A program made the translations under genes and the position numbers. A stretch of 64,000 nucleotides of DNA, taken from positions 1 to 64,000 of the forward strand of contig SHNF01000013.1 in the NCBI GenBank assembly GCA_004295085.1. The letters run 5' to 3'. The notes below the pieces were generated by a model. It did no database searches and was not told the DNA's origin. It saw only the letters and a list, made by a program, of their open reading frames with translations. Of this stretch, positions 4,169-23,768 are shown piece after piece. This DNA is from Planctomycetota bacterium (lineage in GTDB: Bacteria > Planctomycetota > UBA1135). Numbering within the stretch: the stretch's first letter is position 1; every line of letters starts with the position of its first letter.

Positions 4169-5026
4169 ATGAAACCCCGGCAATGGACGGCCCGCCTGGC
4201 GCTCGCCGGCGGCGTCGCTGCGCTGGCCTGGGCCCTCAGCCCGGCCGGTGGCAGCGCAGTGCAGCCCTCGTTCCGGCCGGCGACGCGCAGCGCGCTCGCC
4301 AGCTATCTGCAGCAGCCCTCCGCGGCATCCTGGGCTTCCCAAACCGGCGGCAGCCGCAGCCACCTGCCCAATTCGGTGATGCCCAATAGCACCGTGGGAG
4401 TGCGGTGCTCCGTGGACACCACGGATGCGGGCACGCCGCCGAGCTGTTCCACCAGTTCCGCCACCGTGCGCTGCTCGGCGCACTGCGACAACGTGCAGTT
4501 CTGCTCCGCTGTCATCGGGACTGCGCCGTCCGGTCCCGCGGCCATCTGCTCCACGCTGGGGGGCAGCAACGGCCTCACCTGCTCGGTGCTGCAGCCCGTG
4601 CTCACTTCGGCCGGGCCCTCGCAGTGCAGCACCTTCGGAGGCCTCCCCGGCATCACGCTGGCGTGCTCGATCATGGGAGTGGCCGGGCAGCAGGCCTGTT
4701 CGGCGCGGAACCCGGCGGGGATAGCCGGCAACCAGTGCTCGACCTTCACCGGCGGCACCACGGGCGGCGCGCGGCGGTGCTCCGTGCTCCTGGGAGGAAC
4801 GCCCCTGAACAACCGCTGCTCGGTGGGCGATTCGGTCCCGGTCGGGTCCGTGCCCAAGGAGTGCTCGGTGTTCACCCCGAACAGCAAGTGCTCGGTCCAG
4901 TCGGGCAACAACGGCTTCTGCACCGTCTTCGCGCCGGCTCCGGCCGGCACCTGCAGCATCTTCGCGGCCAGCGCCACCTGCAGCGTCATCGGCGGCGCCA
5001 GCGGCTCGTTCTGCACCTGGCCGTAG
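4169..5026 (+). CDS. secreted Cys-Ser ladder protein (19 cysteines)
   Basis: Protein of 285 residues with an N-terminal signal peptide (about residues 1-30, ending GGSAVQP). After a Ser/Ala-rich linker, 19 cysteines occur between residues 80 and 282, mostly 9-15 residues apart. Eighteen of the 19 are followed by Ser or Thr, giving repeated CSV, CST, CSI, CTV units separated by Gly/Pro/Asn-rich stretches. This looks like a short-repeat beta-solenoid or disulfide ladder; the family is not one I can name. An internal metal-binding role is an alternative. The gene stands alone with a strong AAGGAG ribosome site and is followed by a convergent gene. The Cys pattern is seen directly; structure and role are inference. 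Confidence 0.8.
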   Translation: MKPRQWTARLALAGGVAALAWALSPAGGSAVQPSFRPATRSALASYLQQPSAASWASQTGGSRSHLPNSVMPNSTVGVRCSVDTTDAGTPPSCSTSSATVRCSAHCDNVQFCSAVIGTAPSGPAAICSTLGGSNGLTCSVLQPVLTSAGPSQCSTFGGLPGITLACSIMGVAGQQACSARNPAGIAGNQCSTFTGGTTGGARRCSVLLGGTPLNNRCSVGDSVPVGSVPKECSVFTPNSKCSVQSGNNGFCTVFAPAPAGTCSIFAASATCSVIGGASGSFCTWP

Positions 5027-7354: not shown

Positions 7355-8323
7355 GTGGCGACAGAGAGCGCGCCGGGAGGGCTTCGTGGAGCCGGACGGG
7401 CGGTCATCGCCGTCGCGCTCGCGGTGTCCGCCTGCCGCGGCGAGCTGGAGCCGCACCTGGGAGCGGGCGTGGCGGCGCCGGATCCGGAAGTGCTGCTGGC
7501 CGCGGGCGCGCGCTTCGAGCTGCAGCTCGGCGACGAGCCGTTCGCGCTGGCGCGCGCCGAGATCGAGGACTGGATCCGGGACGCCGCTCTGGCCGTGGCG
7601 TCGTACTACGGGCGCTTTCCCGTGGCGCGCACGACGGTGCGGGTCCGGCGCGTGCAGGGAGACGGCGTCGGAGGCGGCAACACGCGCGCCTGGGACGGTT
7701 CCGCCCTGATCCAGGTGGAGCTCGGCGAGCACGCCAGCGTGGAGGACCTGAAGGAGGACTGGGTGCTGCCGCACGAGATGGTGCACCTCGCGCTGCCCGG
7801 CCTCCCTCGGCAGCACCACTGGCTGGAGGAGGGCATCGCGACCTACGTCGAGCCGGTCGCGCGCGCCCAGCTCGGGCAGTTGCGCGTGGAGGAGGTGTGG
7901 CGCCAGCTCGTTCAAGGCCTGCCGCAGGGCCAGCCGGAGCCGGGCGATCGCGGCCTGGACCGCACGCCCACGTGGGGACGCACGTACTGGGGCGGCGCCC
8001 TGTTCTGCCTGCTCGCCGACGTCGGGATCCGCGAGCGCACGGGCAACCGCTTCGGCCTGCGCGACGCCCTGCGCGCGGTGGTCGCGGGCGGCCACACGAT
8101 GCTGAGCACCTCGACGATGGAGGAGCTGCTGGCGCTGTGCGACGAGGCCGCCGGCGTGCCGGTCATGAGCGAGCTGTACGCCGCTCACGCCACGGAGGCT
8201 GTGACGGTCGACCTCGATCTGTTGTGGAGCCGACTCGGCGTGTCCCTGCGCGGGCGCCGGATCCGGTTCGACGATGCTGCGCCCCTGGCCGCAGTGCGGC
8301 GCGCGATCACGGCCGGCGAGTGA
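7355..8323 (+). CDS. lipoprotein with gluzincin-type metalloprotease motif
   Basis: Protein of about 322 residues starting at GTG. A lipoprotein signal ends in AVSAC (Cys27), so it is probably anchored in a membrane. HEMVH (140-144) followed by WLEEGIATYVE (156-166) gives the two His and the downstream Glu of gluzincin peptidases, as in the M1 and DUF2268-like families. The start is chosen because it places a normal lipobox; longer readings from 7151 have unnatural composition before this point. It is divergent from the pyruvate kinase and overlaps the end of the convergent PAP2 gene by 17 bases. Substrate is unknown. Confidence 0.75.
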   Translation: MATESAPGGLRGAGRAVIAVALAVSACRGELEPHLGAGVAAPDPEVLLAAGARFELQLGDEPFALARAEIEDWIRDAALAVASYYGRFPVARTTVRVRRVQGDGVGGGNTRAWDGSALIQVELGEHASVEDLKEDWVLPHEMVHLALPGLPRQHHWLEEGIATYVEPVARAQLGQLRVEEVWRQLVQGLPQGQPEPGDRGLDRTPTWGRTYWGGALFCLLADVGIRERTGNRFGLRDALRAVVAGGHTMLSTSTMEELLALCDEAAGVPVMSELYAAHATEAVTVDLDLLWSRLGVSLRGRRIRFDDAAPLAAVRRAITAGE

Positions 8324-9038
8324 GCGCGAGCCAGCAGATCAGGGCCCAGGCCAGCCCCGCCGCCCAGCCGGCGACCACGTCCGTCGGGTAATGAACGCCC
8401 AGGAAGACCCGGCTGGTGCCGACCAGCACCGTCAGGAACATCGCCATCCCCAGGACGAAGAGCCGGCCGCGCCAGCCCGGGGTCATGCGGGCCAGCATCG
8501 CGGCCAGCGTGAGGAAGGCCACCGCCGACTGCATCGAATGCCCGCTGGGAAAGCCGTAGCCCACCACGCGCGCGAGGTGCAGCTCGACGTCCGGACGCTC
8601 GCGCGTGAAGACCAGCTTGAGAAGCCGCGAGACCAGGAGGCCGCTGGCGGTGGTCCACAGCACGGTCCAGGCCGCGGCGCGACGCCGCTGGATCATCAGG
8701 TAACCGAACACGCTGGCGAGCAGCAGCGCGAGCACCGTGGTGCTGCCCAGGGCGGAGACATCCCGCATGGCCTCGGCCAGCCACGGCGGGCCCACCGGTG
8801 TCCTGGGATTGTCGGCGTGGCGCAACAGGAGGACCAGGCGTGCGTCCAGGCTCTGGGTCGAGCCCTCGGCCATCGCGTTGGCGATCAAGAGGAAGCCAAG
8901 CAGCGCCAGGGCGGCCAGCAGGGCGGTGGCCAGGGTCAAGGGCTCCTTGCGGGCCAGTTGCAGGCCGCCGGAGCCGAGCCGCACGAAGTGCTGCCCGAAT
9001 CTCCGGAACCGTGCAGGCCGCTGTGCGCGCTGCGCCAT
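8307..9038 (-). CDS. PAP2-family membrane phosphatase
   Basis: Integral membrane protein of 243 residues with about five to six hydrophobic helices. The three PAP2 signature pieces are all present: KLVFTRERP (141-149), PSGHS (164-168) and SRVFLGVHYPTD (209-220), giving the nucleophile and acid His residues of the phosphatidic acid phosphatase type 2 superfamily. Likely substrates are undecaprenyl pyrophosphate or other phospholipid phosphates at the outer face of the inner membrane; the exact one cannot be read from sequence. A TAGGCT hexamer ends nine bases before the ATG with no Shine-Dalgarno, suggesting a leaderless message. Confidence 0.9.
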   Translation of the reverse strand: MAQRAQRPARFRRFGQHFVRLGSGGLQLARKEPLTLATALLAALALLGFLLIANAMAEGSTQSLDARLVLLLRHADNPRTPVGPPWLAEAMRDVSALGSTTVLALLLASVFGYLMIQRRRAAAWTVLWTTASGLLVSRLLKLVFTRERPDVELHLARVVGYGFPSGHSMQSAVAFLTLAAMLARMTPGWRGRLFVLGMAMFLTVLVGTSRVFLGVHYPTDVVAGWAAGLAWALICWLALTRRP

Positions 9039-9088: not shown

Positions 9089-12000
9089 TCACTGCGTGCG
9101 GAGCAGTTCGTGGCGGACGATGGCCACCGGATCGCCGGCGCTCACGTACAGACGCAATGCGTCCAGGTGGCGCAGATCCACCTCGCCTTGCCAGAGCAGC
9201 AGCTTCCGCGCGCGCGTGCCTTCCCCATCGCCGGCGCTCTTGAGCTCCAGGCGGACCTGCCAGGCGCCGGGCGCGATCGCTTGCTGGGCTCCGACCTGTC
9301 TCCCGTTTTCCAGGAACTGGCGATCCGACGCGTCGAAGTGCTCGGTGCTCTCGCCGCCATCCGGGGCGACCAGGCGCAGCTCCAGGTCCATGCGCGGCAT
9401 CTCCCACGGGCCGCTCGCGCTGTCCTTCGCAACCTGGAGCCAGGCGGTCGGGCGCTCGCGCAGCTCGATCTCTTGATCGCCTTCGCGAACCGAGATGGAC
9501 TCCGGCTCCCACCGGCTGCCGCCGGTGACCTGAACCTTGTAGTCATTCGCGGGCAACTCCAGCTCCAGCCCGCCGTGGCTCGAGACCGTGGTGTCGCCCG
9601 CGGAGCCGGAGCCGAGAACGAGCCGGACCTGCCTGGGGACGCCGGGCACGCCGCGCATCTGCACGTGAACACGGCCCATGGGCCAGGGAACGACGACGTC
9701 GTGAAGGTCCGGCGGCACAACGAGCAGGTCGCCCTTGGGCTTTGCCGCCGGCCCGCGCAATTCGGCTCCCGCGCTCAAGTGCACCGCCGCCTTGCCCACG
9801 CCAGGGAATTCAAAGCGGCCGGCCGCGTCGGTGAGTGCGGTGGCGTAGCCTCCTCCAACGGAGTCCTGCCATCTCGCCCGGAGCTGCCGCGACGCCACGG
9901 GCTGGTCCCCGGCCATGACCACTCCGCGCAGTCTCCGGCTGCCGGTCAGGTCGAAATCGATCCGCGTTTCCTGGTCCGCCAGCTCGATCGTGCGCACGAA
10001 GTCCTGGCCGGCCAGGCCATGCAGCACTGCTCGCTGCTGGCCCAGCGGCAGCCAAGCTTCGTATTCGCCGCCTGCGTCCAAGGGCACGTAGGCCCCGCCT
10101 TCCGGGGGCCACTTCCAGTGCAGGAGGAGCTGGCGTGGTGGCGTTCCCTCCGGCAGCCGCGCCGCGCCGAACACACGGCCCAGGTCCGGAACCTCGATGC
10201 GGAGCGGTTCGGTGCCTTGCAGGCGCGCGACGGCAACGATGGCTCGACCGGGCTCCGTGAAGACCACGATGCCGTGACCTTCGCCGCCGAGCCGCGCCTT
10301 CAGTTCGAAGCTGCCATCTGCATCGACCGCAACCGCCTGGCCGGCGCACGGCCATTGCAGCCATTCGGACGGAAAGCCCGCGCGGGCGATGCCAGCGTCG
10401 GTCCAGCGCCGGACCGCCGGATCCAAATACTCGAGCATTGCCTCGGCCACGCGCAAGCGCCGCAGGTCGCTCGGATCCTGCGCGTGGACGCTGCCCTTCA
10501 CGGACCGCACTCCCGGAAGCCGTACGGTCAAGGGCTGGCCGGTCGCCGCTTCGATGAAGCTCGCGGAAAACCAGCGCCCGAGCTGCGGATGATCGACCCT
10601 GAGCTCGAACGACAGGCGGGTGTCCCACGGAGTGCGCGCGCTGCCCTCCGGCCCGGTGACGAGGCGGATGACGTCAAGCCGGTGCAGGTCGCAGACCGCT
10701 CCGGCGACTGACCTGCCGTCCGGATCGACGACCTGGATCTCCAACTCGTTGGACGGTGCGATCTCGATGACCTGTGGCTTGTCTTCGTAGGCGTCCCAGC
10801 GACCGATGTTGTCCTCAACGAAGTCGCCATAACCGTCGGCGCTCACGTGGATCGCCGCGCCGTTCACCGCGTGTGACCAGGTGAGATCGGCGTGCGAAGG
10901 GAAGGAGGGCAGCTTCGCGTGGCCGAGATCGTCGGTGTGGAATACCTGGTCTTGCATCTCCCGGGCCAGGTCTCCGGGCAGGACCTGACCGAGCCAGGTG
11001 GCGGGTGCAACGAGCGTGCGCACGCGTGCTCCCGCGATTCCCCGGCCCTGTGGATCCACGATCTGCACTCGGTAGGGCCGGCTCGGCGGAATGCGCACCT
11101 CGAACTGATTGGCCCCGGTCTCCAGGCTTCCGACCAGCGTGGTGTAGCCGGGGGCGGACACCGCGAAGGCCTGCAGGCGCTCCGCGGACGGCGACAGCAT
11201 CAGCTCGTAGGACCCATCAGGCCCGGAAATGGCGCGCGCGCCGGCCCAGTCGATGCGCGCTCCGGCCACCGGGTTTCCCTGCAGATCGGACACCGTGCCG
11301 CTGATCCAGTTGCCGAGGATGCTGCGTGCGATGGATGGGGATCCCCCAGGCTCCGGCGCACGCTCCCTGCGCCGTGCCAGCGTCTCGGCGGGCGGTCCTC
11401 CAGAATCGCGTCCGTCGCTGGCCGGTGCGATTGCCGTCGCGCCGCGGTCGTCATGCGCAGGGCTGCCGGCGGGCCCGTTCGGCACCAGCGTCCACAGGGC
11501 CGCCAGGGCCAGGATCAGCGCGGCCGCCACGGCCGCGGCCCGGGTCGTGCTCAGGGCCGCGGCCGCGGACATCCAGGCCGGCGGCGCCGACGCTGCCGGC
11601 GCCAGCAGCGCGCGACACGATCGCTCCCAGCCGCCGTCCCCACGGCTCTGCAGCTCCATGCGGAGAGCTTGCAAGGTCCGGTAGAGGCCGTCGTGCACGG
11701 CGCGGCTCGGAATGTCGAGCCTCTTCGCGATCTCCCGCGGAGGCAATCCTTCATAGAAACGCAGATGCACCAGGGTCCGCTGTCCTTCCGGCAGGCTCAG
11801 GACGGCTTGGGCCAGCGCGCGATGCGCTTCCATCTGCACGGCGATGTCCGCGGCGGACGGGACTGCCTCCGCGCGCGCCGCGCGCTGCTCGCGCCGGCGG
11901 CGGCGGGCTGCGGCGCGGCGGCCCAGGAACGCTGTGCTGCGGAGAACCTGGCTCAGCCATGAGCCGAGCGCGGCCGGACTGTGCGGCGGCCGTTGCAGGG

Positions 12001-12133
12001 CCCTGGTCCAGGTGTCCTGGACCGCGTCGTCGGCCAGGTCTGCATCATGCAGGAGGCTCCAGGCCAGGCCGCGCACCCAGGCGGCGTTGGCGAGCAGGCG
12101 TTCCGGATCGAGCTCGGAGGATCGTGCGGCCAT
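9089..12133 (-). CDS. ECF sigma factor fused to a transmembrane segment and carboxypeptidase-regulatory-like beta domains
   Basis: Protein of 1014 residues. Residues 1-75 carry sigma region 2 (AADDAVQDTW-type helix, GSWLSQVLRS). Residues 100-165 carry region 4 (LPEGQRTLVHLRFYEGLPPREIAKRLDIPSRAVHDGLYRTL with its helix-turn-helix). A hydrophobic segment follows at about 198-216, after an Ala-rich linker without a zinc-finger anti-sigma motif. The remaining 800 residues are beta-rich repeats of the carboxypeptidase-D regulatory type (for example ISGTVSDLQGNPVAGARI at 277-295). The topology predicts a cytoplasmic promoter-recognition head tied to an extracytoplasmic sensor or structural region. 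It lies 61 bases after a paralogous beta-domain membrane protein and is probably cotranscribed with it. Release by proteolysis or action at the membrane is inference. Confidence 0.85.
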   Translation of the reverse strand: MAARSSELDPERLLANAAWVRGLAWSLLHDADLADDAVQDTWTRALQRPPHSPAALGSWLSQVLRSTAFLGRRAAARRRRREQRAARAEAVPSAADIAVQMEAHRALAQAVLSLPEGQRTLVHLRFYEGLPPREIAKRLDIPSRAVHDGLYRTLQALRMELQSRGDGGWERSCRALLAPAASAPPAWMSAAAALSTTRAAAVAAALILALAALWTLVPNGPAGSPAHDDRGATAIAPASDGRDSGGPPAETLARRRERAPEPGGSPSIARSILGNWISGTVSDLQGNPVAGARIDWAGARAISGPDGSYELMLSPSAERLQAFAVSAPGYTTLVGSLETGANQFEVRIPPSRPYRVQIVDPQGRGIAGARVRTLVAPATWLGQVLPGDLAREMQDQVFHTDDLGHAKLPSFPSHADLTWSHAVNGAAIHVSADGYGDFVEDNIGRWDAYEDKPQVIEIAPSNELEIQVVDPDGRSVAGAVCDLHRLDVIRLVTGPEGSARTPWDTRLSFELRVDHPQLGRWFSASFIEAATGQPLTVRLPGVRSVKGSVHAQDPSDLRRLRVAEAMLEYLDPAVRRWTDAGIARAGFPSEWLQWPCAGQAVAVDADGSFELKARLGGEGHGIVVFTEPGRAIVAVARLQGTEPLRIEVPDLGRVFGAARLPEGTPPRQLLLHWKWPPEGGAYVPLDAGGEYEAWLPLGQQRAVLHGLAGQDFVRTIELADQETRIDFDLTGSRRLRGVVMAGDQPVASRQLRARWQDSVGGGYATALTDAAGRFEFPGVGKAAVHLSAGAELRGPAAKPKGDLLVVPPDLHDVVVPWPMGRVHVQMRGVPGVPRQVRLVLGSGSAGDTTVSSHGGLELELPANDYKVQVTGGSRWEPESISVREGDQEIELRERPTAWLQVAKDSASGPWEMPRMDLELRLVAPDGGESTEHFDASDRQFLENGRQVGAQQAIAPGAWQVRLELKSAGDGEGTRARKLLLWQGEVDLRHLDALRLYVSAGDPVAIVRHELLRTQ

Positions 12134-12194: not shown

Positions 12195-14741
12195 TCAGGG
12201 CAGCGTGAGGCTCAGGCTGCGGGTTTCGTGCTCGGCGAGCAGCAGGCGCCAGGTATGGACCGGTGCCTCGGCCGACAGGAAGCCGCGGCTGCGGCGCAGG
12301 ATCACCAGCACTTCGCCGGCGGGCACGCCCAGCAGCCTGGCCAGTCCTTGCGCGTCGGTCGTGGCGCTGGAATACGCCGCGGAGGCTCCGCTCCACTGCT
12401 CGTGATCCTCGGGCGCGGGCTCGGAGGCGATCCAGGTCAGGGCCTCCGCTTGCCAGCCGGCCTGGGGCTGGCCGCGCGCGTCCGCGACCTGCAGCTCGAT
12501 GCTGCCGGCGGAAGGCGCGCGCAGCTCGATGAACGATCGTTCGGGCACCTGGACTTGCGCCTGCGCGCGCGCGCCGTTGTGGAATTGCGCCTCCAGGGTG
12601 TAGGGACCGGCCCAGAGGCACTCGAGTTGCAGGAGGCCCGTGGCATCGCTGCGCAGGCCCGAGCCGGACGCATTCTGCGGCCCGCCGCCGCCATGGAGGT
12701 GGATGCGCGCGGGCGCCGGCAGGCCGCGGCTGTCGAGGGTGCTCACCTGTAGCGTGTGCGCGCCGAGCACGAGGTCGCCGGTCCACGTGGTGGAGCCCTG
12801 CGCCATGCCGGGGAGATCGAACGCGAACTCGACGCCGCCGTGCAGAACCGTGAAAGAGACGCGGTAGGTCAGCGGGAAGCTGCTGGTGAACTGGAAGACG
12901 CCGGCGGCGTCGGTCGTCGCCCATTGATCGGAGCGGCGCACGCGCACGCCGGCCAGAGGGCCGGCGGGGCCGAGCACGCGCCCCTGCAAGGTGATCGGGC
13001 GGCGCGCGGACAGCAGGTCCACCCAGGTGGTGCGGCCGGCGTGGACTTCGGCCTCGACCAGGGGAATGCGGCCGATGCTGGCGTCGGAGTGGTATTCCGC
13101 CAGCTCGTAGCGTCCTGGGGCAAGGCCTGGAAAACTGAAGGAGCCGTTGGAGGGCAGGATGGCCAGGAGCAGCGGCTCCTGCGCGCCCGCGCGCGTGACG
13201 CCGAGATAACCCCAGCGGCCGACGCCTGCGAGCACGCCGGAGGGCTCGAGCACGTGCTCCAGCTCTAGGGTCTGGCTCTCGGCGACCTCCAGCGCCTCAC
13301 GCCGGTCGAAGCTGAGGCCGGACGCGTACACCTCCACGCGGTGGCGCCCGGGCTGCAGGCCGCCGAGGTGGTAGCGGCCGGCGGCGTCGGTGCGGGCGCG
13401 TGGGTGCGAGACCGGGTGGTCGCCTTCGGTGCGGGAGTCGGAGTCCAGGCGCCAGACGTGGACGCCGTGCAGGGTGAAGCCGTCGGGGAAGTTGGAGGTG
13501 CTGGGCGCGAAGGTCGTGCGGATCTCCGCGCCGGCCACGGGCCGGCCGTCGGCGCGGCGCACGACTCCGGCGATGGCGGCGCCGCGGGCCACCGGGAGGT
13601 CGAGCACGGTGAGCGCGCCGGCGCGGACTTCCGCGAGCAAGGGCTGCACGGAATTGGGAAGGGCGAAGTCGCCGAACTGCATCGGCGGCAGGGCCAGCCG
13701 CGCGCTGCCGGCAAGCTCGAGGGCGAAGCTGCCGGCCGGCAGGGCCTCGAACCGGTAGCGGCCGTCGCGCACGGGGGTCTGCCAATGGCGGCCGTACGTG
13801 GTGTAGTGCGGGTGCTGGTTGTTCAGCGCGTGCGCGCGCACCACGGCGTCGCCGAGCTCGGCCGCGTCCAGGCCGAGCAGGCGGCCTTCGAGCTGCCCCG
13901 GGCTGGCGACGGTGACCTTCAAGCCGCCGGCGGACATGGCGCCCGCGACGTTGCCCACGTTCCACAGCGACGCCCAGCCGGTGCGGCCGTCAGGGACGGT
14001 CGCCGTGGCCACGGCGCCCGACATCGGGGTTTCGGGGAAGGTGACCTTGCCATCGGCGCCGGTGGTGCCCTGCAGCGGCGCGAGACGTCCGCCGCCGGCC
14101 ACCCCGCGCCCCTGCACGCCGCCGGTGACGTGCACGTGCGCGCCGGACACGGGAGCATCGCCGGTGTCCACGATCAGGACCACGAAGTCGCGCGCGCTCT
14201 CCGGGCCATCCACCTGGATCTGCAGGCGGTTCTCTCCGCCGCGCACCACGGTCTCCTGATCCGCGTGGCGTCCGTCCTCGGTGCGCGCGGACACGCGGTA
14301 CGCGCCGGCCGGAAGGTCGGCAAAACCCGCGTAGGCTTGCGGATCGGTCCGCGCCTGCGCGCGCAGCTCCCGATCATCGCCGATCTCCAGTCCCGGCGGG
14401 AAGGCGCCCAGGACCGGCTCCAATTCCACGCGGGCATCCGGTAGCGGGTCTTCGCCGGCTGCCACGACGCGCACGAGCAGTGCGCCCAGCGGGCGCTCGC
14501 CGGGGTAGCGCGCGAGCGCCGTGGGCTCGGCCGGCGGCTCCGGCTGCGCCGGGGCGGCGCCGTGCCGCAGCGGCGCGGCGTCGGATCCGAGCGCCGGGGC
14601 GCCGGCGGAGCGGACCGGCTGCTGCGGCGCGGCCGCGGGCCCGGCGGGCGTTGGAGCGACCGGCTTGCGCGCCAGGCTCAGCCAGGCAGCCAGCCCTGCG
14701 AGGAGCAGGAAAGCGACCGCAAGGAGCGTGCGCCGCGGCAT
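12195..14741 (-). CDS. membrane-anchored carboxypeptidase-regulatory-like beta-domain protein
   Basis: Protein of about 848 residues. MPRRTLLAVAFLLLAG gives a signal anchor at residues 1-20, followed by a Pro/Ala-rich linker and many beta-sandwich repeats with G.V....G.P..GA.V patterns typical of carboxypeptidase-D regulatory or MG2-like domains (examples: ALLVRVVAAGEDPLPDARVEL and GVVRRADGRPVAGAEIRTTF pieces). No catalytic motif is visible. An upstream in-frame ATG at 14840 would add 33 residues before the anchor and is less likely. It is the first gene of a two-gene unit with the sigma-factor fusion, whose extracytoplasmic part has the same type of domain, so the two may interact. Function is otherwise unknown. 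Confidence 0.75.
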   Translation of the reverse strand: MPRRTLLAVAFLLLAGLAAWLSLARKPVAPTPAGPAAAPQQPVRSAGAPALGSDAAPLRHGAAPAQPEPPAEPTALARYPGERPLGALLVRVVAAGEDPLPDARVELEPVLGAFPPGLEIGDDRELRAQARTDPQAYAGFADLPAGAYRVSARTEDGRHADQETVVRGGENRLQIQVDGPESARDFVVLIVDTGDAPVSGAHVHVTGGVQGRGVAGGGRLAPLQGTTGADGKVTFPETPMSGAVATATVPDGRTGWASLWNVGNVAGAMSAGGLKVTVASPGQLEGRLLGLDAAELGDAVVRAHALNNQHPHYTTYGRHWQTPVRDGRYRFEALPAGSFALELAGSARLALPPMQFGDFALPNSVQPLLAEVRAGALTVLDLPVARGAAIAGVVRRADGRPVAGAEIRTTFAPSTSNFPDGFTLHGVHVWRLDSDSRTEGDHPVSHPRARTDAAGRYHLGGLQPGRHRVEVYASGLSFDRREALEVAESQTLELEHVLEPSGVLAGVGRWGYLGVTRAGAQEPLLLAILPSNGSFSFPGLAPGRYELAEYHSDASIGRIPLVEAEVHAGRTTWVDLLSARRPITLQGRVLGPAGPLAGVRVRRSDQWATTDAAGVFQFTSSFPLTYRVSFTVLHGGVEFAFDLPGMAQGSTTWTGDLVLGAHTLQVSTLDSRGLPAPARIHLHGGGGPQNASGSGLRSDATGLLQLECLWAGPYTLEAQFHNGARAQAQVQVPERSFIELRAPSAGSIELQVADARGQPQAGWQAEALTWIASEPAPEDHEQWSGASAAYSSATTDAQGLARLLGVPAGEVLVILRRSRGFLSAEAPVHTWRLLLAEHETRSLSLTLP

Positions 14742-14880
14742 GGACGGCTTTCCATGGTAGGGTTCAGCCGGTTCCGCGAGGTAACAGCATTGTTGCTGTA
14801 CCGCATCGTGCGTTTCCGGCGCGCGGGGCGAAACGACCACGCAGGGGCGGGCACTCTAGAGGTGCATCCCCAGCACTTGC

Positions 14881-16086
14881 GTGCCTTCCATCTCCTCATG
14901 CAGCACCGTGTCTGAAGAGGCCCGCGCTCGCAGCCTGCCCCTCGGCGGCGAGGACGCGGCGCTATTCCGTCCCCGCGTCCAGGAGCCCTGGACCGTGGAA
15001 CGCAGGACCGGGCAGTTCCGGGGCCGGCTCCTGGGGCGGGACGAGGTCGGGCTGGCCATCCGGCTCTACCGGGAGGCGAGCTTCAACCAGCTGACCGCGG
15101 AGCAATGGGACTGGCGCTTCTTCCAGCGCAACCCGGAGCTGGCCTTCGTCTCCGGAGTATTCACGCCCGAGGGCAGGCTGATCGCGCTCAACCCGATGAC
15201 GGTGCGGCCGGTCTGGATCCTGGGGCGCGAGCAGCTGGCGGCCCAGGCCTGCGACACGCTTGTGCATTCCGACTACCGCGGCGGCGGGCGCGTGTACGCC
15301 TTCCTGATGCGCTTCGGCTTCGACATGCTGTGGGCTTACGGGATGCACTTCGGCTTCGGCGGCGGCGCCACGGCGGAGGCCGCGGCCGTGGGCAAGCGGC
15401 TCGGCAACTACCACTCACTCTTCGACATGGCGGTGTACGAGCGGCGCCTGTCCTTGCGCCTGGCGCTGGGGCGCCGCGCCGGGGCGGCGGGCGGCGCGGC
15501 GGCGAAGCTCCTGGACGGACTCCGGCCGCACCGCCGCCTGCAGCGCCACGGCGGCCTGGAGATCCGCGCGGCGGCGCAAGCCGGCCCGGAGTTCGACCGC
15601 CTGTGGCAGCGCAAGCGCGAGCGCTACACCGTGGTGCTGCGGCGCGACGCGCGCGAGCTGCGCTGGCGCTGGTTCGAGAACCCGGTGCCCTCGGAGATGC
15701 TGGCGGCCTGGCGCGGCGGCGAGCTGGAGGGCTACATCGTGCTGCGCCATCATCCGGATCCCGGCGGCCCGGCGCGGCTGACGACCGTGCTGGACCTGTT
15801 CACGGGGCTGGAGCCGGAGGTGGACGAGGCCCTGCTGGCCGCGGCCGCGCGCGTAGCGCGGGCTTCCGGCAGCGATTTCCTGCACTACGCGGCCTGTCCC
15901 GGCGCCAGTGCGGCGGCGCTGCTGCGGCGCGCGCCGTGGCGGCCGGCGCGCAAGCAGGTGGACCGCGTGGTCACCGCTCCTTACCCGTATGCGGCCCGCG
16001 ACAGCGCCGTCCTGCCCGAGTTCGACGCGGCGATGCACGGGCAGAACTGGTACTACTGCCAGGGCGACTCGGACTTCCTGGACTGA
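14881..16086 (+). CDS. GNAT-like N-acyltransferase, paralogue 1
   Basis: Protein of about 401 residues, probably cytoplasmic. The N-terminal half has a GNAT fold signature: RLYREASFNQLTAEQWDWRF, then VHSDYRGGGRVYAFLM, the acetyl-CoA pyrophosphate loop with an R-G-G-G core. The C-terminal half is a second module ending NWYYCQGDSDFLD; WYxxxGDSD-type tails occur in GNAT enzymes of polysaccharide loci. A second copy lies at 17797-19077 with the same tail. The start is GTG at 14881; another GTG at 14908 is possible. It converges with the FG-GAP gene, stop codons five bases apart. Acyl acceptor is unknown; modification of a sugar or peptide is inference. Confidence 0.75.
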   Translation: MPSISSCSTVSEEARARSLPLGGEDAALFRPRVQEPWTVERRTGQFRGRLLGRDEVGLAIRLYREASFNQLTAEQWDWRFFQRNPELAFVSGVFTPEGRLIALNPMTVRPVWILGREQLAAQACDTLVHSDYRGGGRVYAFLMRFGFDMLWAYGMHFGFGGGATAEAAAVGKRLGNYHSLFDMAVYERRLSLRLALGRRAGAAGGAAAKLLDGLRPHRRLQRHGGLEIRAAAQAGPEFDRLWQRKRERYTVVLRRDARELRWRWFENPVPSEMLAAWRGGELEGYIVLRHHPDPGGPARLTTVLDLFTGLEPEVDEALLAAAARVARASGSDFLHYAACPGASAAALLRRAPWRPARKQVDRVVTAPYPYAARDSAVLPEFDAAMHGQNWYYCQGDSDFLD

Positions 16087-16090
16087 GACC

Positions 16091-17701
16091 TCAGGGGAAG
16101 GCGTGCACGAACAAGGCGCTGAGCTCGCAGTGCGGCGGGTCCAGGGCCTGGAGCAGCACGGTCCGTCCGGAGGCGCCGGGAGGGACCATGAGGGTGACGG
16201 TGCCGGCGCCCGCGGCGTCGAGGTTGGCGCTGCCTAGGAAACGGGGCTGGTTGAGCCGGAAGAACAGGCCCGGGCAGCCGGAGACCGGCACGCGGCCGGG
16301 CCGCAGGCTGAAGTACACGTAGGCCACGGAGTTCGGCTGGCCGCAGCGCAGCCGGATGACGTTGCTGGTCCCGGCCAGTCCTGGATCGAGACCGGCGATT
16401 TGCAGCTCGTCCGTGCAGCCGGCGAAGACCGTGGCGGTGCCGGTGTCGGAGCCGGCGCGGTCGGTGAGCGGCGCGCCAGCGATGATGTCGTCCAGCCCGT
16501 CGGCATCGACGTCGCCGGCGCCGTCCACCGCGAAGCCGAGGCGGTCGCCGGCCTGAGCGCCGTATGCCGAAAGGAGCAGGCTGCCGTCGGCGCCGCTGTG
16601 CACGCGCACGTGACCGCACTGGACCGCGATCGTGTTGTTCTGCCAGGCGCCGACGACGATGTCGTCCAGCCCGTCGCCGTTGAAGTCGCCGGCGTTGGCG
16701 GCGGCGTAGCCGAGCGTGTCGTAGCTGGTCGTGCCGTAGAAGCTGAACAGCAGGGCGAAAGTGCGGCCGGAGTAGATGTCCACGCGCCCGGCCTGGAAGC
16801 CGGTGTCGCGCGCGCCGGGCGCGGCCACGAAGAACTCAGAGCGGCCGTCGCCGGTCAGGTCGCCCATGCTGCCGGCCGCCCAGCCGAACTGATCGCCGAG
16901 CCCGTGCCCGTCTAAGGTGCGCAGCAGCGCGCCGTCGCGGCCGCTGTAGATGCGCGCGCTCCCGGCGCCGTAGAAGCTGCTGTTCTCGCGGGGCGCGCCG
17001 ATCACGAAGTCGCCGTAGCCGTCGGCATTGACGTCCCCGGCCCCGCTGACGCCGGTGCCGAACTCGCCGTCCGGCGCAGCGCCGTAGCGCGCATACAGGC
17101 GCGCGCCGTTGAGTCCGGAGTAGACGTAGGCCGCTCCGGCGTTGTTGGCGAGGGCCTCGCTGGAGCGCGCGCCCACGATGAAGTCGCCGGTCCCGTCGGC
17201 GTCGACGTCGCCGGCCGCGCCGGCCGTCAGGCCGAAGTTGTCCCAGCTCGCCTCTCCGGACACGGTGTAGAGCGGGGTGCCGGTGGCTCCGGAGTAGACC
17301 GTGACGATGCCGCTCGAGGGGAAGGCGCCGTCCGCGAAGGGAGCGCCGATCAGGTAGTCGTCCCGGCCGTCGCCGTCCACGTCGCCGATGCCCTGTACCA
17401 CCTGTCCGAAGTTGTCCTCGGGACGCGTCGGCGGGTGCACCCGCAGGCTGGCGCCATCGACGCCGGAGTAGACGTCGACGCGGCTGATGCCGCTGCCCAA
17501 CGGGGGCGACAGGGGCACCGTGCTCACGCCGAAGTCGGCGTAGCCGTCGGCGTCGACGTCGCCGAGCCCGCCGACGGCGTAGCCCAGCTGGTCGTGGATC
17601 GACAGCCCGTCGTACTCGTACAGGATCTCCTGCGCCCCCAGGCTGCCGGCGCACAGGAGCGCGCTGGCCAGTCCGGTGGCTGCAGCAAGGAAGGAATGCA
17701 T
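16091..17701 (-). CDS. secreted FG-GAP repeat protein
   Basis: Exported protein of about 536 residues. MHSFLAAATGLASALLCAGSLGAQ is a signal peptide. About seven FG-GAP repeats follow, each with a G.GDVDADGxxDxxVG calcium loop, followed by a C-terminal beta domain (GCPGLFF...GASGRTVLLQALD...HAFP) that matches the tail of the FG-GAP protein at the left end of the window. A strong GGAGGAGG site lies six bases before the ATG at 17701, which decides the start against an in-frame codon at 17725. It sits between the two GNAT paralogues in the opposite orientation. Surface or matrix function is inference. Confidence 0.88.
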   Translation of the reverse strand: MHSFLAAATGLASALLCAGSLGAQEILYEYDGLSIHDQLGYAVGGLGDVDADGYADFGVSTVPLSPPLGSGISRVDVYSGVDGASLRVHPPTRPEDNFGQVVQGIGDVDGDGRDDYLIGAPFADGAFPSSGIVTVYSGATGTPLYTVSGEASWDNFGLTAGAAGDVDADGTGDFIVGARSSEALANNAGAAYVYSGLNGARLYARYGAAPDGEFGTGVSGAGDVNADGYGDFVIGAPRENSSFYGAGSARIYSGRDGALLRTLDGHGLGDQFGWAAGSMGDLTGDGRSEFFVAAPGARDTGFQAGRVDIYSGRTFALLFSFYGTTSYDTLGYAAANAGDFNGDGLDDIVVGAWQNNTIAVQCGHVRVHSGADGSLLLSAYGAQAGDRLGFAVDGAGDVDADGLDDIIAGAPLTDRAGSDTGTATVFAGCTDELQIAGLDPGLAGTSNVIRLRCGQPNSVAYVYFSLRPGRVPVSGCPGLFFRLNQPRFLGSANLDAAGAGTVTLMVPPGASGRTVLLQALDPPHCELSALFVHAFP

Positions 17702-17796
17702 GACGAACCTCCTCCAGGGCGCCACTGGGATCGGGGGATGCCGGGCGCTAGCTCCGGGACTGGCCAGGGTAACCGGAATCTCTGTATTCTTCCGCA

Positions 17797-19077
17797 GTGC
17801 CAGGCCAGGAGCCGGGGACTGTAGTGGCGCATCCGCCGGCAGAGCCCCAAGTCCATGCCTCTTCGGATCTTACGACGGACGTGAAGCAGTCCCAGTCGCC
17901 GCTCGATGCGGAGACCGGAGGAAATGCGCCCTCCGGGAGCGACGATGCGGCCTTGCTGTTGCCTCCGCCCGGCGTCGAGCCGCTGCAGCAACGTGCCGGG
18001 GGCCAGTACCTGGGCCGCCTGCTGCGCCGGGACGAGGTGGACCGCGCCATCCAGCTGTACCGCGAGGCCAGTTTCAGTCAGTTGACCCCGAAGCAGTGGG
18101 ACTGGCGCTTCTTCGGCCGCAATCCCCGGATGGGCATTCTGCCGGCCGTGTTCCACAGGGACGGCCGGCTGATCGCGATCTATCCGGTCACGTTCCGCCC
18201 GGTCTGGATCCGGGGCCGCGAGCTGATGGCGGGGCAGGCCTGCAACACGCTGGTGCACCCGGAGTTCCGCGGCGGCGGGCGGGTGTACCTGTTCCTGATG
18301 AAGTTCACCTTCGACGTGTTCTGGTCGCACGGACTGCACTTCGGCTACGGGGGGGGCGCCACGGAAGAAGCGATGAAGGTTGGAGCGAAGCTGAGCACTT
18401 ACCGGCCGCTCCTGGAGCTCACGGTGCGCGAGCGCCGCCTGTCCCTGCGCCTGGCGCTGGGCCGGCGCTTCGGGGAGGTAGGCGCGCTGGGGGCGCGCGT
18501 GCTGGACGCATCACGGCGCCGCACCGCCAGCCGCCGCCACGGCGGCTTCGAGCTGCAGACGGTAGCGGCCGCGGGGCCGGAATTCGACGAGTTGTGGCGG
18601 CGCAAACGCGGCCGCTATGTGGTCGCGGTGCGCCGTGACGCGCGCGAGCTGGACTGGCGCTGGTTCGCCAACCCGGTGCCCTCGCAGGTGATCGCGGCGC
18701 GCCGCGACGGCCGCCTGGAAGGCTATGTCGTGCTGCGCCACCACCCGGACACGGGCGGCCCGGCGCGGCTGAGCACCGTGATCGACCTGTTCAGCGGCCA
18801 GGAGCCGGAGGTGGATGCAGCCCTGCTCGCCGCCGCCGCGCGGGAGGCGGGCGACGCCGGCAGCGACTTCCTGCATTTCGCGCCCGCGCCGCGCAGCAGC
18901 GCCTTCCCGCAAGTGCAGGCCAAGCCGTGGCGGCCGGCACGCAAGGAAGTGGACCGCGTGCTGGTCGCGCGCTGCTCCTACGACCCGGGCCAGGTCGGAA
19001 TCCAGGCGGAGTTCGACACGGTGATGGACGGCGCGAACTGGTACTACTGCCAGGGCGACTCCGATTTCCTGGACTGA
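17797..19077 (+). CDS. GNAT-like N-acyltransferase, paralogue 2
   Basis: Protein of about 426 residues with a 75-residue polar N-terminal extension, then the same layout as the gene at 14881: LYREASFSQLTPKQWDWRFF, VHPEFRGGGRVYLFLM (acyl-CoA loop), the FxGYGGGAT segment, and the tail NWYYCQGDSDFLD. The extension is not present at comparable length in paralogue 1. The start is GTG with TATTCT ending six bases upstream and no Shine-Dalgarno, suggesting a leaderless message. The two copies and their identical tails indicate duplication followed by divergence, perhaps to act on different acceptors. Confidence 0.75.
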   Translation: MPGQEPGTVVAHPPAEPQVHASSDLTTDVKQSQSPLDAETGGNAPSGSDDAALLLPPPGVEPLQQRAGGQYLGRLLRRDEVDRAIQLYREASFSQLTPKQWDWRFFGRNPRMGILPAVFHRDGRLIAIYPVTFRPVWIRGRELMAGQACNTLVHPEFRGGGRVYLFLMKFTFDVFWSHGLHFGYGGGATEEAMKVGAKLSTYRPLLELTVRERRLSLRLALGRRFGEVGALGARVLDASRRRTASRRHGGFELQTVAAAGPEFDELWRRKRGRYVVAVRRDARELDWRWFANPVPSQVIAARRDGRLEGYVVLRHHPDTGGPARLSTVIDLFSGQEPEVDAALLAAAAREAGDAGSDFLHFAPAPRSSAFPQVQAKPWRPARKEVDRVLVARCSYDPGQVGIQAEFDTVMDGANWYYCQGDSDFLD

Positions 19078-20021: not shown

Positions 20022-22475
20022 ATGCTGCTCTGTGCGATCCCATTCATCTTCCCCGTGCCGGCGGTGGCGCATTGCCCCGCCCCGACACAAGAGCCCTCCG
20101 TCAGCTCTGAGCGCCTCCTCGGCCCACGCCAGACATCCGACCTTCGGATCCTGCGCCGGGGCTCCGTGGTCGCCGCCAACTGGAGCGCGCCCGGCACCCG
20201 CGAGCCGCTGTACGCCGTCTCCCTGGACGGCGGAGGCCGTTTCAGCCGCCCGCAGCCGTACGACGCGCGCATCCTGCTGCGTTACGCCGAGTTCGATCCG
20301 CTGCGCGAGGCCGAGCCCGCGGTGGACGAGGGCCTGCAGGCGCGCGCCGAGCACGAGTTGTGGATCGTGCAGTACGTGGTCAAGGGCCTGGAGCCCTGGC
20401 GCCAGGAGATCCAGTCCCTCGGCGCCCGCCACCAGCGCGTGCTGGCCAACCACGGCGACATCTGGCGCATGGGCGCCGCCACCGCCGCGGAGGTCGCAAC
20501 CCTGCCCTTCGTGCGCTGGGTCGGACGGTTCCATCCCGCGTACAAGCTGGAGGACGAGCTGCTGGCGCAGCTCCGCGGCGGGACGCTGCAGACCCGCGGC
20601 TACCGCGTGGAGGTGGGAGAGTGGGGGGCGCCGGACAAGGCCCTCGTGGCCGCCCGCATCCAGGTGCTGGGCGGACAGGTGGATCGGTTCATCGAGGAGG
20701 GCTACGTGCTGGAGGCCACGCTCACGCCCGCGCAGCTCCTGGAAGTCCTGCACTGGAGCGAAGTGCAGGGCATTGACCGGGTCGGCGCGCCGGAGCCCGA
20801 CATGAACAACGTGCGCGCCGTGTTCGGCGCCAACTACCTGGAGACCGTGGCCGGCTTCACCGGCACCGGCGTGCGCGCCGAGGTGATGGACGGCGGCCTG
20901 GACACCAACCATCCGGACTGGACGCTGCCGCCGATCCTGCACGGCACGGTTCCCAGCGACGCGCACGGCACCTGCACCTTCGGCATCAACTTCGGCAACG
21001 GCAGCTCCGCCGCCAGCGCCCGCGGCATGGTCCCCTCGGCCCAGGGCATCATCGCGAGCTACTCGTTTCTCTCCAACCGCTATACCCATACGCAGCAGCT
21101 CGTGACCACGTACCAGGCGGTCTACCAGAGCAACAGCTGGGGCGACCCCTGGACCACCGCCTATACCTCCATCTCCCAGGAGATGGACGACATCATCTAC
21201 CTCAACGACATCATCATCACCCAATCGCAGTCGAACACCGGCAACCAGCAGTCGCGGCCGCAGGCCTGGGCCAAGAACATCGTGTCGGTGGGCGGGATCC
21301 ATCACTTCAACAACCAGAACGACGGCGACGACCGCTGGAACGGCAGCGCCAGCATCGGCCCGGCCGCCGACGGCCGCATCAAGCCCGACCTGGCCGGCTA
21401 CTACGACAACATCTGGACCTCGGACGAGGATCCGGGCGGCTACGTCACCGGCGACGACTACACGGGCTTCTGCTGCACCTCCGCGGCCACCCCGCAGGTC
21501 GCCGGCTCCTTCGGCCTGTTCTTCGAGATGTGGCACAACGGCCTGTTCGGCAACACGCCCGGCGCCAGCGTGTTCGCCAGCCGCCCGCACGCCTCCCTGG
21601 CGAAGGCCATGCTGATCAACAGCGCGCGCTCCTGGAGCTTCACCGGCACCACCTCCGACCTGACGCGTACGCACCAGGGCTGGGGCAAGCCGGACCTGCA
21701 GAAGCTGTACGACAACGCCGCCCAGACCTTCTGGGTCAACGAGACCGACCTGCTGCAGGACCTCCAGTCCAAGAGCTACACCGTGACCGTGCCTGCGGGT
21801 GCGCCCGAGTTCCGCGCCACCCTGGTCTACACCGACCGCGCCGGCACCACCAGCTCGTCCCAGCACCGCATCAATGACCTGTCACTCAAGGTCACGACCC
21901 CCGGCGGCACGGTGTACTGGGGCAACAACGGCCTCAACGCCGGCAACTGGAGCACGGCCGGCGGCGCCTCCAACATCAAGGACACGGTGGAGAACGTGTT
22001 CGTGCAGAACCCGGCGGCCGGCGACTGGACCGTGGAGGTGTTCGCCGACGACGTCAACCAGGACACGCATGCCGAGGACGGCACCTCCCCGCCCAACGTG
22101 GACTACGCGCTGGTGGTGGTGCCGGACACCGGCGGCGGCTGCGGCACGGTGGACACGATCGCCCTCAGCGGGCCCAACGTCGCCTTCGTGGGCAGCACCG
22201 TCACTCTCGACTACAGCGGCGCCCCCGGCAGCGCTCCGTTCTTCATGCTGTACAGCTTCCGCACCGACGGCTCCGTCATCAACGGCCAGTGCTTCGACAT
22301 CGGCCCCACGGTGTTCACCGCCGGGACCGGCACCACCGCGGCGCTGGGCTTCGGCTCCTGGACCAGCTCCAACATCCCGGCGCGCGCCGCCGGGCGCATC
22401 GTCCACGTCGAGATGCGCGTGGACAGCGGCGGAGACACCTTCGACAGCAACTACCTGACGATCTCGGTTTTCTAG
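20022..22475 (+). CDS. secreted subtilisin-like (S8) serine protease
   Basis: Exported protease of 817 residues. The catalytic triad is visible as Asp290 (VMDGGLDTNHPDW), His315 (SDAHGTCTFG) and Ser487 (CTSAATPQVAG), with NSWGDPW and NTGN around the oxyanion region. About 200 residues before the catalytic domain look like a propeptide (WIVQYVVKGLEPWRQEIQ region). After it comes a P/homo-B-like beta domain (NDLSLKVTTPGGTVYWGN) and a 107-residue C-terminal domain (about 711-817) that is clearly homologous to the tail of the neighbouring matrixin. TAGCCT ends eight bases before the ATG without a Shine-Dalgarno. Likely role: extracellular protein degradation. Confidence 0.92.
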   Translation: MLLCAIPFIFPVPAVAHCPAPTQEPSVSSERLLGPRQTSDLRILRRGSVVAANWSAPGTREPLYAVSLDGGGRFSRPQPYDARILLRYAEFDPLREAEPAVDEGLQARAEHELWIVQYVVKGLEPWRQEIQSLGARHQRVLANHGDIWRMGAATAAEVATLPFVRWVGRFHPAYKLEDELLAQLRGGTLQTRGYRVEVGEWGAPDKALVAARIQVLGGQVDRFIEEGYVLEATLTPAQLLEVLHWSEVQGIDRVGAPEPDMNNVRAVFGANYLETVAGFTGTGVRAEVMDGGLDTNHPDWTLPPILHGTVPSDAHGTCTFGINFGNGSSAASARGMVPSAQGIIASYSFLSNRYTHTQQLVTTYQAVYQSNSWGDPWTTAYTSISQEMDDIIYLNDIIITQSQSNTGNQQSRPQAWAKNIVSVGGIHHFNNQNDGDDRWNGSASIGPAADGRIKPDLAGYYDNIWTSDEDPGGYVTGDDYTGFCCTSAATPQVAGSFGLFFEMWHNGLFGNTPGASVFASRPHASLAKAMLINSARSWSFTGTTSDLTRTHQGWGKPDLQKLYDNAAQTFWVNETDLLQDLQSKSYTVTVPAGAPEFRATLVYTDRAGTTSSSQHRINDLSLKVTTPGGTVYWGNNGLNAGNWSTAGGASNIKDTVENVFVQNPAAGDWTVEVFADDVNQDTHAEDGTSPPNVDYALVVVPDTGGGCGTVDTIALSGPNVAFVGSTVTLDYSGAPGSAPFFMLYSFRTDGSVINGQCFDIGPTVFTAGTGTTAALGFGSWTSSNIPARAAGRIVHVEMRVDSGGDTFDSNYLTISVF

Positions 22476-22481
22476 AGAATC

Positions 22482-23768
22482 CTAGAGAACCGTCGTCGCC
22501 ACGAGGTTGGAATCGAACAGCTGGCCGCCGGAAGCGGCGGCCAGCTCCAGATAGATCGTGCGCCCGGCGAGCCGGGGCGGGACCGGCGGCGAAGTGAAGC
22601 CGCCAGCGCCGGTGGAGTCCGCCCGGCCGCCTCCCAGGTTGTGCACGGGAAGCCCGACGTCGAAGGGATGCCCCTGCAGGATGGAGCCGCTGCCGCGGGC
22701 GGAAGCCAGCACCCGGAACGGGGCCGACGGCGGCGCATTGGCGATGCCGAGCGCCACCACGGCGCCGGCGCTCACGCTTTCCGGCCCCGACAGACGCACC
22801 GTGTCGACGATGCTGCCGGCGCGGAACGGGTGCGCTTCCGAGAGCGACACGTCTCCGCTGAGGGAATTGCGCACGTGCACGGCGCCGTCCTCCGCTCCGC
22901 CCGGCGGCATCGTGAACACGATCTCGCTCCCGCCCGGGCTGGCGATCCCGCTCAGGACGAAGGGCTCGCCGCCGGCGGCGCCGCCGTCGGCCAGCGCGTT
23001 GTTGAACCAGATCTCGTTTCCGGCCGGAGAGAAGTTGGCGCCCACGATGGTCACGGTTGCGCCGGGCACGGTCCAGCCCGAGAGGCCGTCGATCCGGGGC
23101 TTGAGCGTGCGACTGCGCAGGCCGTAGATGGACTGCAGCCCGATCTGGTCATCGGCCTCGATCGAGCGCGCCGCAACGCCGGTGCCCGCGATCACGGAGC
23201 TCATCGTGGCGCCCGGGACGCTGGAGTGGCCGAGTCCGAGCACGTGACCCAGCTCGTGGGTCAGCACGCCCTGGAAGTCCAGGGCGCCGGGAACCGGGTC
23301 GCCGGGACCGTCGTCCCACGCGGCGAGGTCCTCGTAGACGCGCATGCGCCAGCCGTCGCTGGAGGGGAGCTCGGTGAACCACAGCACGCCTCCGCTGGAT
23401 CCGGGGATGGCGGAGATGATGTTGTCATTGGCGCTGCCGATGCCGGCGGCGTTGCCGTTCCACAGGAAATCGAAGTTGGCGTCGCCGGATCCGACCTGGT
23501 CCTGGCTCGGGTCGCCATCCCCCAGCCCCATGGGCAGACTGCCCCATTCGGCTCCGGCCTTCCAGGCCGCCAGCTCGACGTCGGTGGAGCCCGGCCAGTT
23601 GGGGTGCGGCGTCAGGTTGCCGTGCAGCGTCGCCTGCGTGAAGTTGTCGAACAGCCGGAAGTCGCGCTGGCTCAGGTCCAGCCGGTCGCCGGTCGCGGTC
23701 CACGCGGGCAGCAATCCGGCGCTCGCGAGCAGGCCGGCGCCGAGGATCCATCGCAGCGGGTTGCGCAT
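22482..23768 (-). CDS. secreted matrixin-like zinc metalloprotease
   Basis: Exported protein of 428 residues with signal peptide (residues 1-25, LLASAGLLPAWTA). The zinc site HELGHVLGLGH (171-181) followed by the Met-turn PGATMSS is the metzincin/matrixin signature. An IPT/TIG-type beta domain follows (VPGATVTIVGANFSPAG). The last 107 residues (322-428, starting DTVRLSGP and ending FDSNLVATTVL) match the C-terminus of the convergent subtilisin at 20022-22475; the two genes end six bases apart. TAGATT ends six bases before the ATG, again fitting a leaderless message. Likely role: extracellular proteolysis. Confidence 0.92.
   Translation of the reverse strand: MRNPLRWILGAGLLASAGLLPAWTATGDRLDLSQRDFRLFDNFTQATLHGNLTPHPNWPGSTDVELAAWKAGAEWGSLPMGLGDGDPSQDQVGSGDANFDFLWNGNAAGIGSANDNIISAIPGSSGGVLWFTELPSSDGWRMRVYEDLAAWDDGPGDPVPGALDFQGVLTHELGHVLGLGHSSVPGATMSSVIAGTGVAARSIEADDQIGLQSIYGLRSRTLKPRIDGLSGWTVPGATVTIVGANFSPAGNEIWFNNALADGGAAGGEPFVLSGIASPGGSEIVFTMPPGGAEDGAVHVRNSLSGDVSLSEAHPFRAGSIVDTVRLSGPESVSAGAVVALGIANAPPSAPFRVLASARGSGSILQGHPFDVGLPVHNLGGGRADSTGAGGFTSPPVPPRLAGRTIYLELAAASGGQLFDSNLVATTVL

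Follow-up and report, generated by a model that had tools for sequence, protein, structure and literature searches.

The gene at 9089–12133 of the window (the whole 64,000-nucleotide stretch of DNA analysed here) places a sigma factor, a membrane anchor and a large outward-facing region in a single polypeptide, and raises the question of how such a sigma factor could be restrained and set free. We favor, with moderate confidence, a one-piece tethered ECF sigma factor that is released by cleavage and that, in about half of its family, is accompanied by a short product of the same gene. The architecture, its conservation, the modular joining, the selection on an internal start and the upstream hexamer are read from the sequence; we infer that tethering is inhibitory, that release is proteolytic, and what role the short product may have.

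Domain organization of the fusion protein

The gene and the segments of its product were delineated as follows:

9089–12133, minus strand: sigma–transmembrane–beta-array fusion gene, 1014 aa, ATG start (Pfam, NCBIfam, hydrophobicity, AlphaFold2)
11909–12091, minus strand: sigma-70 region 2, residues 15–75 (Pfam PF04542)
11663–11821, minus strand: sigma-70 region 4, residues 105–157 (Pfam PF08281/PF04545)
11540–11641, minus strand: juxtamembrane linker, residues 165–198 (family pattern approximately GG(D/E)RxxWxxALLPLA)
11483–11539, minus strand: transmembrane helix, residues 199–217 (hydrophobicity scan; AlphaFold2 helix 198–216)
11315–11482, minus strand: disordered linker, residues 218–273 (AlphaFold2 pLDDT below 50)
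9092–11311, minus strand: extracytoplasmic beta-domain region, residues 275–1014, about 740 residues (Pfam, AlphaFold2, Foldseek)

The Pfam match to region 2 is above cut-off with a low score (27 bits), and the NCBIfam sigma70-ECF model TIGR02937 matches the protein above cut-off with E = 1e-15. Regions 2 and 4 as placed by Pfam lie only about 30 residues apart and sigma3 is absent, as is characteristic of ECF factors, and Foldseek relates the sigma head to ECF sigma structures (M. tuberculosis sigma L, AlgU and E. coli sigma E). No NCBIfam subfamily model reached its cut-off among the matches listed for the protein. Residues 199–217 are the sole predicted membrane-spanning segment, with a mean Kyte-Doolittle value of 2.45 and a summed biological hydrophobicity of -2.2. 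In the outside part Pfam detects one or two CarboxypepD_reg (CRE) domains, at residues 277–341 and in a second stretch, the remainder being beta-rich and divergent; its Foldseek matches are Gram-positive pilins and adhesins (TIE, PitA, SpaC, BcpA), consistent with a stalk-like structure. The original prediction of ECF regions 2 and 4 at the N-terminus and a single helix between sigma4 and the beta domains is thus borne out, whereas the many CRE domains that it placed over 800 residues are seen as a beta array of about 740 residues in which just the one or two are detected.

The overall AlphaFold2 model (pLDDT 65, pTM 0.37) is unreliable for the arrangement of domains, and local features alone were therefore used. 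The sigma2 and sigma4 helices are predicted with pLDDT of about 90, and beyond the membrane helix the chain is disordered to about residue 273 and then consists of nearly all strands. The juxtamembrane linker, about 35 residues that are conserved across the fusions, is modeled as two short helices, although pLDDT is below 50 from residue 180, too low to place the linker relative to sigma.

A family of fusions in Planctomycetota

Using the window protein and a 26-row sigma-to-helix alignment (A2) as queries, we collected 200 fusions, of which 187 remained after removal of those more than 70% identical in the sigma part; these represent no fewer than 21 groups at family level in Planctomycetota. 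This genome alone has 52 region 2 matches, 13 of which are sigma–transmembrane fusions (the window gene and 12 others), and the same design is present in relatives from the same family, the same order and further groups of the phylum. A scan of a genome collection returned four named relatives, three of them Planctomycetota; the remaining 16, from other phyla, match in the sigma part only. Hundreds of such fusion genes are present in uncultured Planctomycetota. Assembly error, named beforehand as a finding that would overturn the prediction, is rejected as the source of the fusion by the 12 further loci in the genome and the many in relatives. No split sigma and CRE gene pairs were found among the fetched loci, most of which were fetched for being fusions.

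The sigma heads are about 27–42% identical to that of the window protein across the group, and both region 2 and region 4 match in 25 of 25 fusion members of A2. The helix begins less than 80 residues past sigma4 throughout the family, and only two long, high-scoring sigma ORFs at the collected loci have no called helix; this conservation is partly inherent in the sample because the search alignment contains the helix, a bias against which the rarity of such helix-less ORFs and the first search, run with the entire window protein, both serve as checks. The 15 residues before the helix have 82 K/R and 13 D/E across the fusions, and those after it 92 and 149, a charge pattern that fits a cytoplasmic N-terminus. 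The C-terminal extensions are mostly 440–900 residues long, and CRE repeats, typically three to six, are recognizable in about 90% of fusions with an outside part.

Two loci depart from this plan. In one (L206:2261-4567, minus strand) the sigma–transmembrane head carries an FGE-sulfatase (formylglycine-generating enzyme-like) domain (E = 4e-41) in place of CRE repeats. The other, a 248-aa paralogue in this genome (L057:4464-5210, plus strand; C1:408 kb), is a natural minimal form with about 36 residues outside, and the outside sensor is therefore not essential to the design.

Modular origin

A relative of the same family in genome G007 has no sigma part (L287:8715-11174, minus strand, 820 aa). 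It aligns with residues 193–969 of the window protein at 26% identity (E = 2e-41), with the start methionine of the relative falling beside Met188 of the window protein. Because this protein begins where the sigma part of the window protein ends, we interpret the product of the window gene as a signal-anchored CRE protein with a sigma head added at its front. CRE proteins that stand alone number about 20 in this genome, and the majority have an N-terminal signal-anchor, among them the product of the gene immediately upstream of the fusion.

Proposed restraint and release of the sigma factor

In the window protein, region 4 is separated from the helix by about 40 residues that have no Pfam match, a stretch into which no known anti-sigma domain would fit. 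No anti-sigma domain lies between sigma4 and the helix of this protein, and none is listed for the 26 members of A2. The genome has eight zf-HC2 anti-sigma matches, all at other loci, in agreement with the earlier expectation that the fusion has no separate anti-sigma factor.

Sigma–transmembrane fusions as such are known already. IutY of Pseudomonas putida (ECF243) similarly has a sigma head, a C-terminal membrane-spanning extension and an outside part in one polypeptide with no separate anti-sigma, although it includes an anti-sigma part and responds to a siderophore, whereas the window-type fusions have no room for an anti-sigma part and expose a CRE beta array (PMC8999054). ECF52 (SCO4117), ECF48 and ECF53 of Actinobacteria are likewise extended at the C-terminus, by one or two helices and an outside domain that binds carbohydrate in SCO4117, but these have a zinc-finger anti-sigma and extensions of up to about 400 residues (PMC8999054), unlike the fusions, in which no zinc finger was found and which are mostly extended by more. 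Of the features that characterize IutY, ECF48, ECF52 and ECF53, the transmembrane helix in the C-terminal extension is present here and the anti-sigma domain is absent. ECF57 and the former ECF87–89 are extended ECF factors of the same phylum, although the extensions of the former ECF87–89 are N-terminal (PMC8103513). In the literature searched, outside of which lie the main ECF classification papers, we found no description of a transmembrane helix and CRE array on an ECF factor, and an ECF group covering these heads may already exist. What sets these fusions apart is the missing anti-sigma domain, the CRE array, the numbers of such genes and the internal start described below.

Most likely, the sigma factor is tethered at the membrane and freed by intramembrane proteolysis. 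M50 proteases are encoded in the genome, although none could be tied to the fusions. Alternatively, sigma could act while tethered, with RNA polymerase recruited to the membrane and a shape change passed through the helix, as in ToxR/CadC-type regulators, which are thought to signal through the helix by such a change, without proteolysis. The conserved linker would suit action of this kind, as would the failure to find a cleavage motif, dedicated protease or anti-sigma domain near the fusions. However, IutY has been shown to be activated by proteolysis, and the same applies to SCO4117 as a model (PMC8999054). Many target promoters would, moreover, need to reach the membrane, and we regard tethered action as unlikely, though it retains appreciable weight.

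An internal start site ahead of the helix

At the junctions of the fusions, a recurrent G-A-x-A-M-S-T-K-x-K motif that resembles the beginning of a secreted protein precedes the helix. The density of ATG ahead of the helix is 42 per 1000 codons, compared with 8.6–9.6 elsewhere, and a Shine-Dalgarno sequence (defined as GGAG, GAGG or AGGA at the proper distance) precedes 69 of 142 of these ATGs, compared with about 10% elsewhere (p = 5e-26). An ATG of this kind occurs in 68 fusions, where random C-terminal windows would yield 3.5. The codon choice is equally skewed: the glycine codon four positions ahead of the ATG is GGA in 55 of 67 instances (15% in the same genes, p = 2e-33), and where valine occupies the start position the codon is GTG in 13 of 14 (versus 39%, p = 4e-5), the sole exception sitting two codons past an ATG. 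Counting both ATG and GTG with a Shine-Dalgarno sequence, the signal is present in 91 of 187 fusions and in 16 of 21 family groups, and the Shine-Dalgarno sequence is commoner at the internal site than at the main start (76/159 versus 42/159).

Synonymous reshuffling of the coding sequences gave an expectation of 16.3 sites, compared with 66 of 120 observed (z = 15.8), and downstream control ATGs matched their expectation. Messenger RNA structure at the internal site is also weaker than in synonymous versions (p = 2e-16), with no effect at control ATGs, and the internal helices of 69 other proteins have a start signal in only 7 of 200 instances. Homologous fusions retain GGA...ATG/GGAG while nearby synonymous sites vary, with ATG and GTG swapped for one another, and their C-terminal parts are just 41–56% identical. 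At the level of the family, though not in the window gene, the internal initiation site is by these measures under selection, and it predicts a second product, an anchor-sensor with no sigma part.

The corresponding position in the window gene is:

11570–11572, minus strand: Met188 (ATG), equivalent in position to the internal start of the family, with no Shine-Dalgarno sequence

We looked for a Shine-Dalgarno sequence before Met188 and found a bare ATG, and because of this a short product of the window gene itself is unlikely to be made well. In this genome the signal is present in 3 of 11 examined fusions.

Alternatively, the internal start might be a relic of the joining, such that the full-length protein alone is made and the ATG and Shine-Dalgarno sequence have no function. 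About half of the fusions, the window gene among them, have no clear internal start with a Shine-Dalgarno sequence, and the sigma-less L287 relative marks the site as a past or present start codon. A relic is nonetheless improbable, given the retention of GGA/GGAG at synonymously variable positions between such divergent C-terminal parts, the fourfold excess over the reshuffled sequences, and the lowered mRNA structure at the same site. In-frame nested genes such as those of two-polypeptide phage endolysins similarly give two products with a shared stop from one ORF (PMC9430671); no description of a nested in-frame internal start for a sigma factor or membrane sensor was found in the literature searched. 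The frequency of the signal suggests that standard annotation would miss a second product in many genes, and the internal start offers a concrete and cheap handle on how tethered sigma factors are restrained.

A common hexamer upstream of the fusions

Within 250 nt ahead of the fusions, TGAACC is the top hexamer, occurring in 48 of 185, compared with 6.5 expected. It lies between -100 and -45 from the sigma domain in 36 of 184, compared with one for its reverse complement, and within 70 nt of the start in 38 of 186 fusions and in 9 of 256 other genes. The hexamer, with a loose CGGCAT about 15 nt downstream of it, resembles an ECF -35 element, and its presence upstream of many fusions points to control of these genes by the sigma factors that they encode or by sister ones. 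The strict two-part pattern is hardly selective, with TGAACCG-N13-15-GGCAT giving nine matches in whole genomes and five in the control, and canonical ECF promoter patterns (GGAAC/AAC-N15-18-CGT) are not enriched upstream of the fusions. The lineage-wide expansion, the sigma-less relatives, the internal start and this motif all go beyond the original prediction.

The hexamer also bears on the proposal that the head is a weak or degenerate remnant and that the protein functions in effect as an adhesin or stalk at the surface, which the low region 2 score of the window protein and the pilin and adhesin matches might suggest, but which is very unlikely in view of the conservation of the heads, the presence of regions 2 and 4 in all fusion members of A2, and an ECF-type -35 upstream.

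A model for the tethered sigma factor

The proposed protein consists of a cytoplasmic sigma2–sigma4 head, the linker of about 35 residues, a signal-anchor helix and an outward stalk of pilin-like beta domains. It arose when a sigma head was placed ahead of a signal-anchored CRE protein of the surface, a type that also occurs with no sigma part. At rest, the anchor would keep sigma from RNA polymerase. The outside array would sense a change, whether a ligand, tension or the loss of partners, leading to cleavage near or in the helix, for which IutY is the model. The freed sigma head would then activate its targets, probably including its own gene through a TGAACC-type promoter. Where the second in-frame ribosome-binding site with ATG or GTG is present, as in about half of the family, it would give the sigma-free anchor-sensor as well, and a few sigma-bearing subunits could report on, or be restrained by, a pool of identical sigma-free subunits. 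The short product might plausibly dilute the sigma-bearing form, compete for ligand or protease, or serve as the main structural protein, with the sigma form as a minor reporter. On balance, it is somewhat more likely than not that across much of the phylum one gene yields both a tethered sigma factor and a sigma-free anchor-sensor, and that their ratio sets how the cell reads its surface proteins.

If correct, such a sigma-receptor system with two products from one gene would be of an undescribed kind. The fusions would also form a large class of one-component systems for transmembrane control of transcription, with the sigma factor serving as its own receptor, and genomes in many lineages would each carry at least a dozen of them.

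Genes flanking the fusion

Three features adjoin or lie close to the window gene:

12195–14741, minus strand: stand-alone CRE protein of 848 aa with a signal anchor, 61 nt upstream of the fusion
14761–14766, minus strand: TGAACC, 20 nt upstream of the neighbor's ATG at 14741, the same hexamer as the family's candidate -35
8307–9038, minus strand: PAP2 membrane phosphatase gene, 50 nt downstream of the fusion (Pfam PF01569, E = 1.5e-22)

The upstream CRE gene probably shares an operon with the fusion, and the PAP2 gene is a possible further member; the TGAACC at 14761–14766 may be due to chance. The upstream gene had been put forward as a co-conserved partner of the fusion, but a stand-alone CRE ORF adjoins only 17 of 187 fusions and we reject it in that capacity. 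At the window locus itself, this adjacent gene may take the role of the short product. Comparison of the paralogue neighborhoods with that of the window gene revealed no common family except the fusions themselves and FG-GAP proteins.

FG-GAP paralogues (35–46% identity) are located at 254–1873 and 16091–17725 of the window and at L043:5941-9103, and two sit between fusion genes in L043. The FG-GAP proteins and a secreted protein (L039:2873-4882) have in common a C-terminal part of about 100 aa, perhaps a sorting domain. The products of 20022–22475 (subtilase-like) and 22482–23768, neighbors on opposite strands, likewise resemble each other (43% identity) over about 108 aa at the C-terminus. 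The genes at 14881–16086, which has no Pfam match, and 17797–19077 are two copies of one gene (58% identity). Finally, a secreted-looking ORF with recurrent Cys-Ser motifs (CSV, CST, CSI) is located at 4169–5026 (plus strand), where the opposite strand is also open and the coding strand is therefore unsure.
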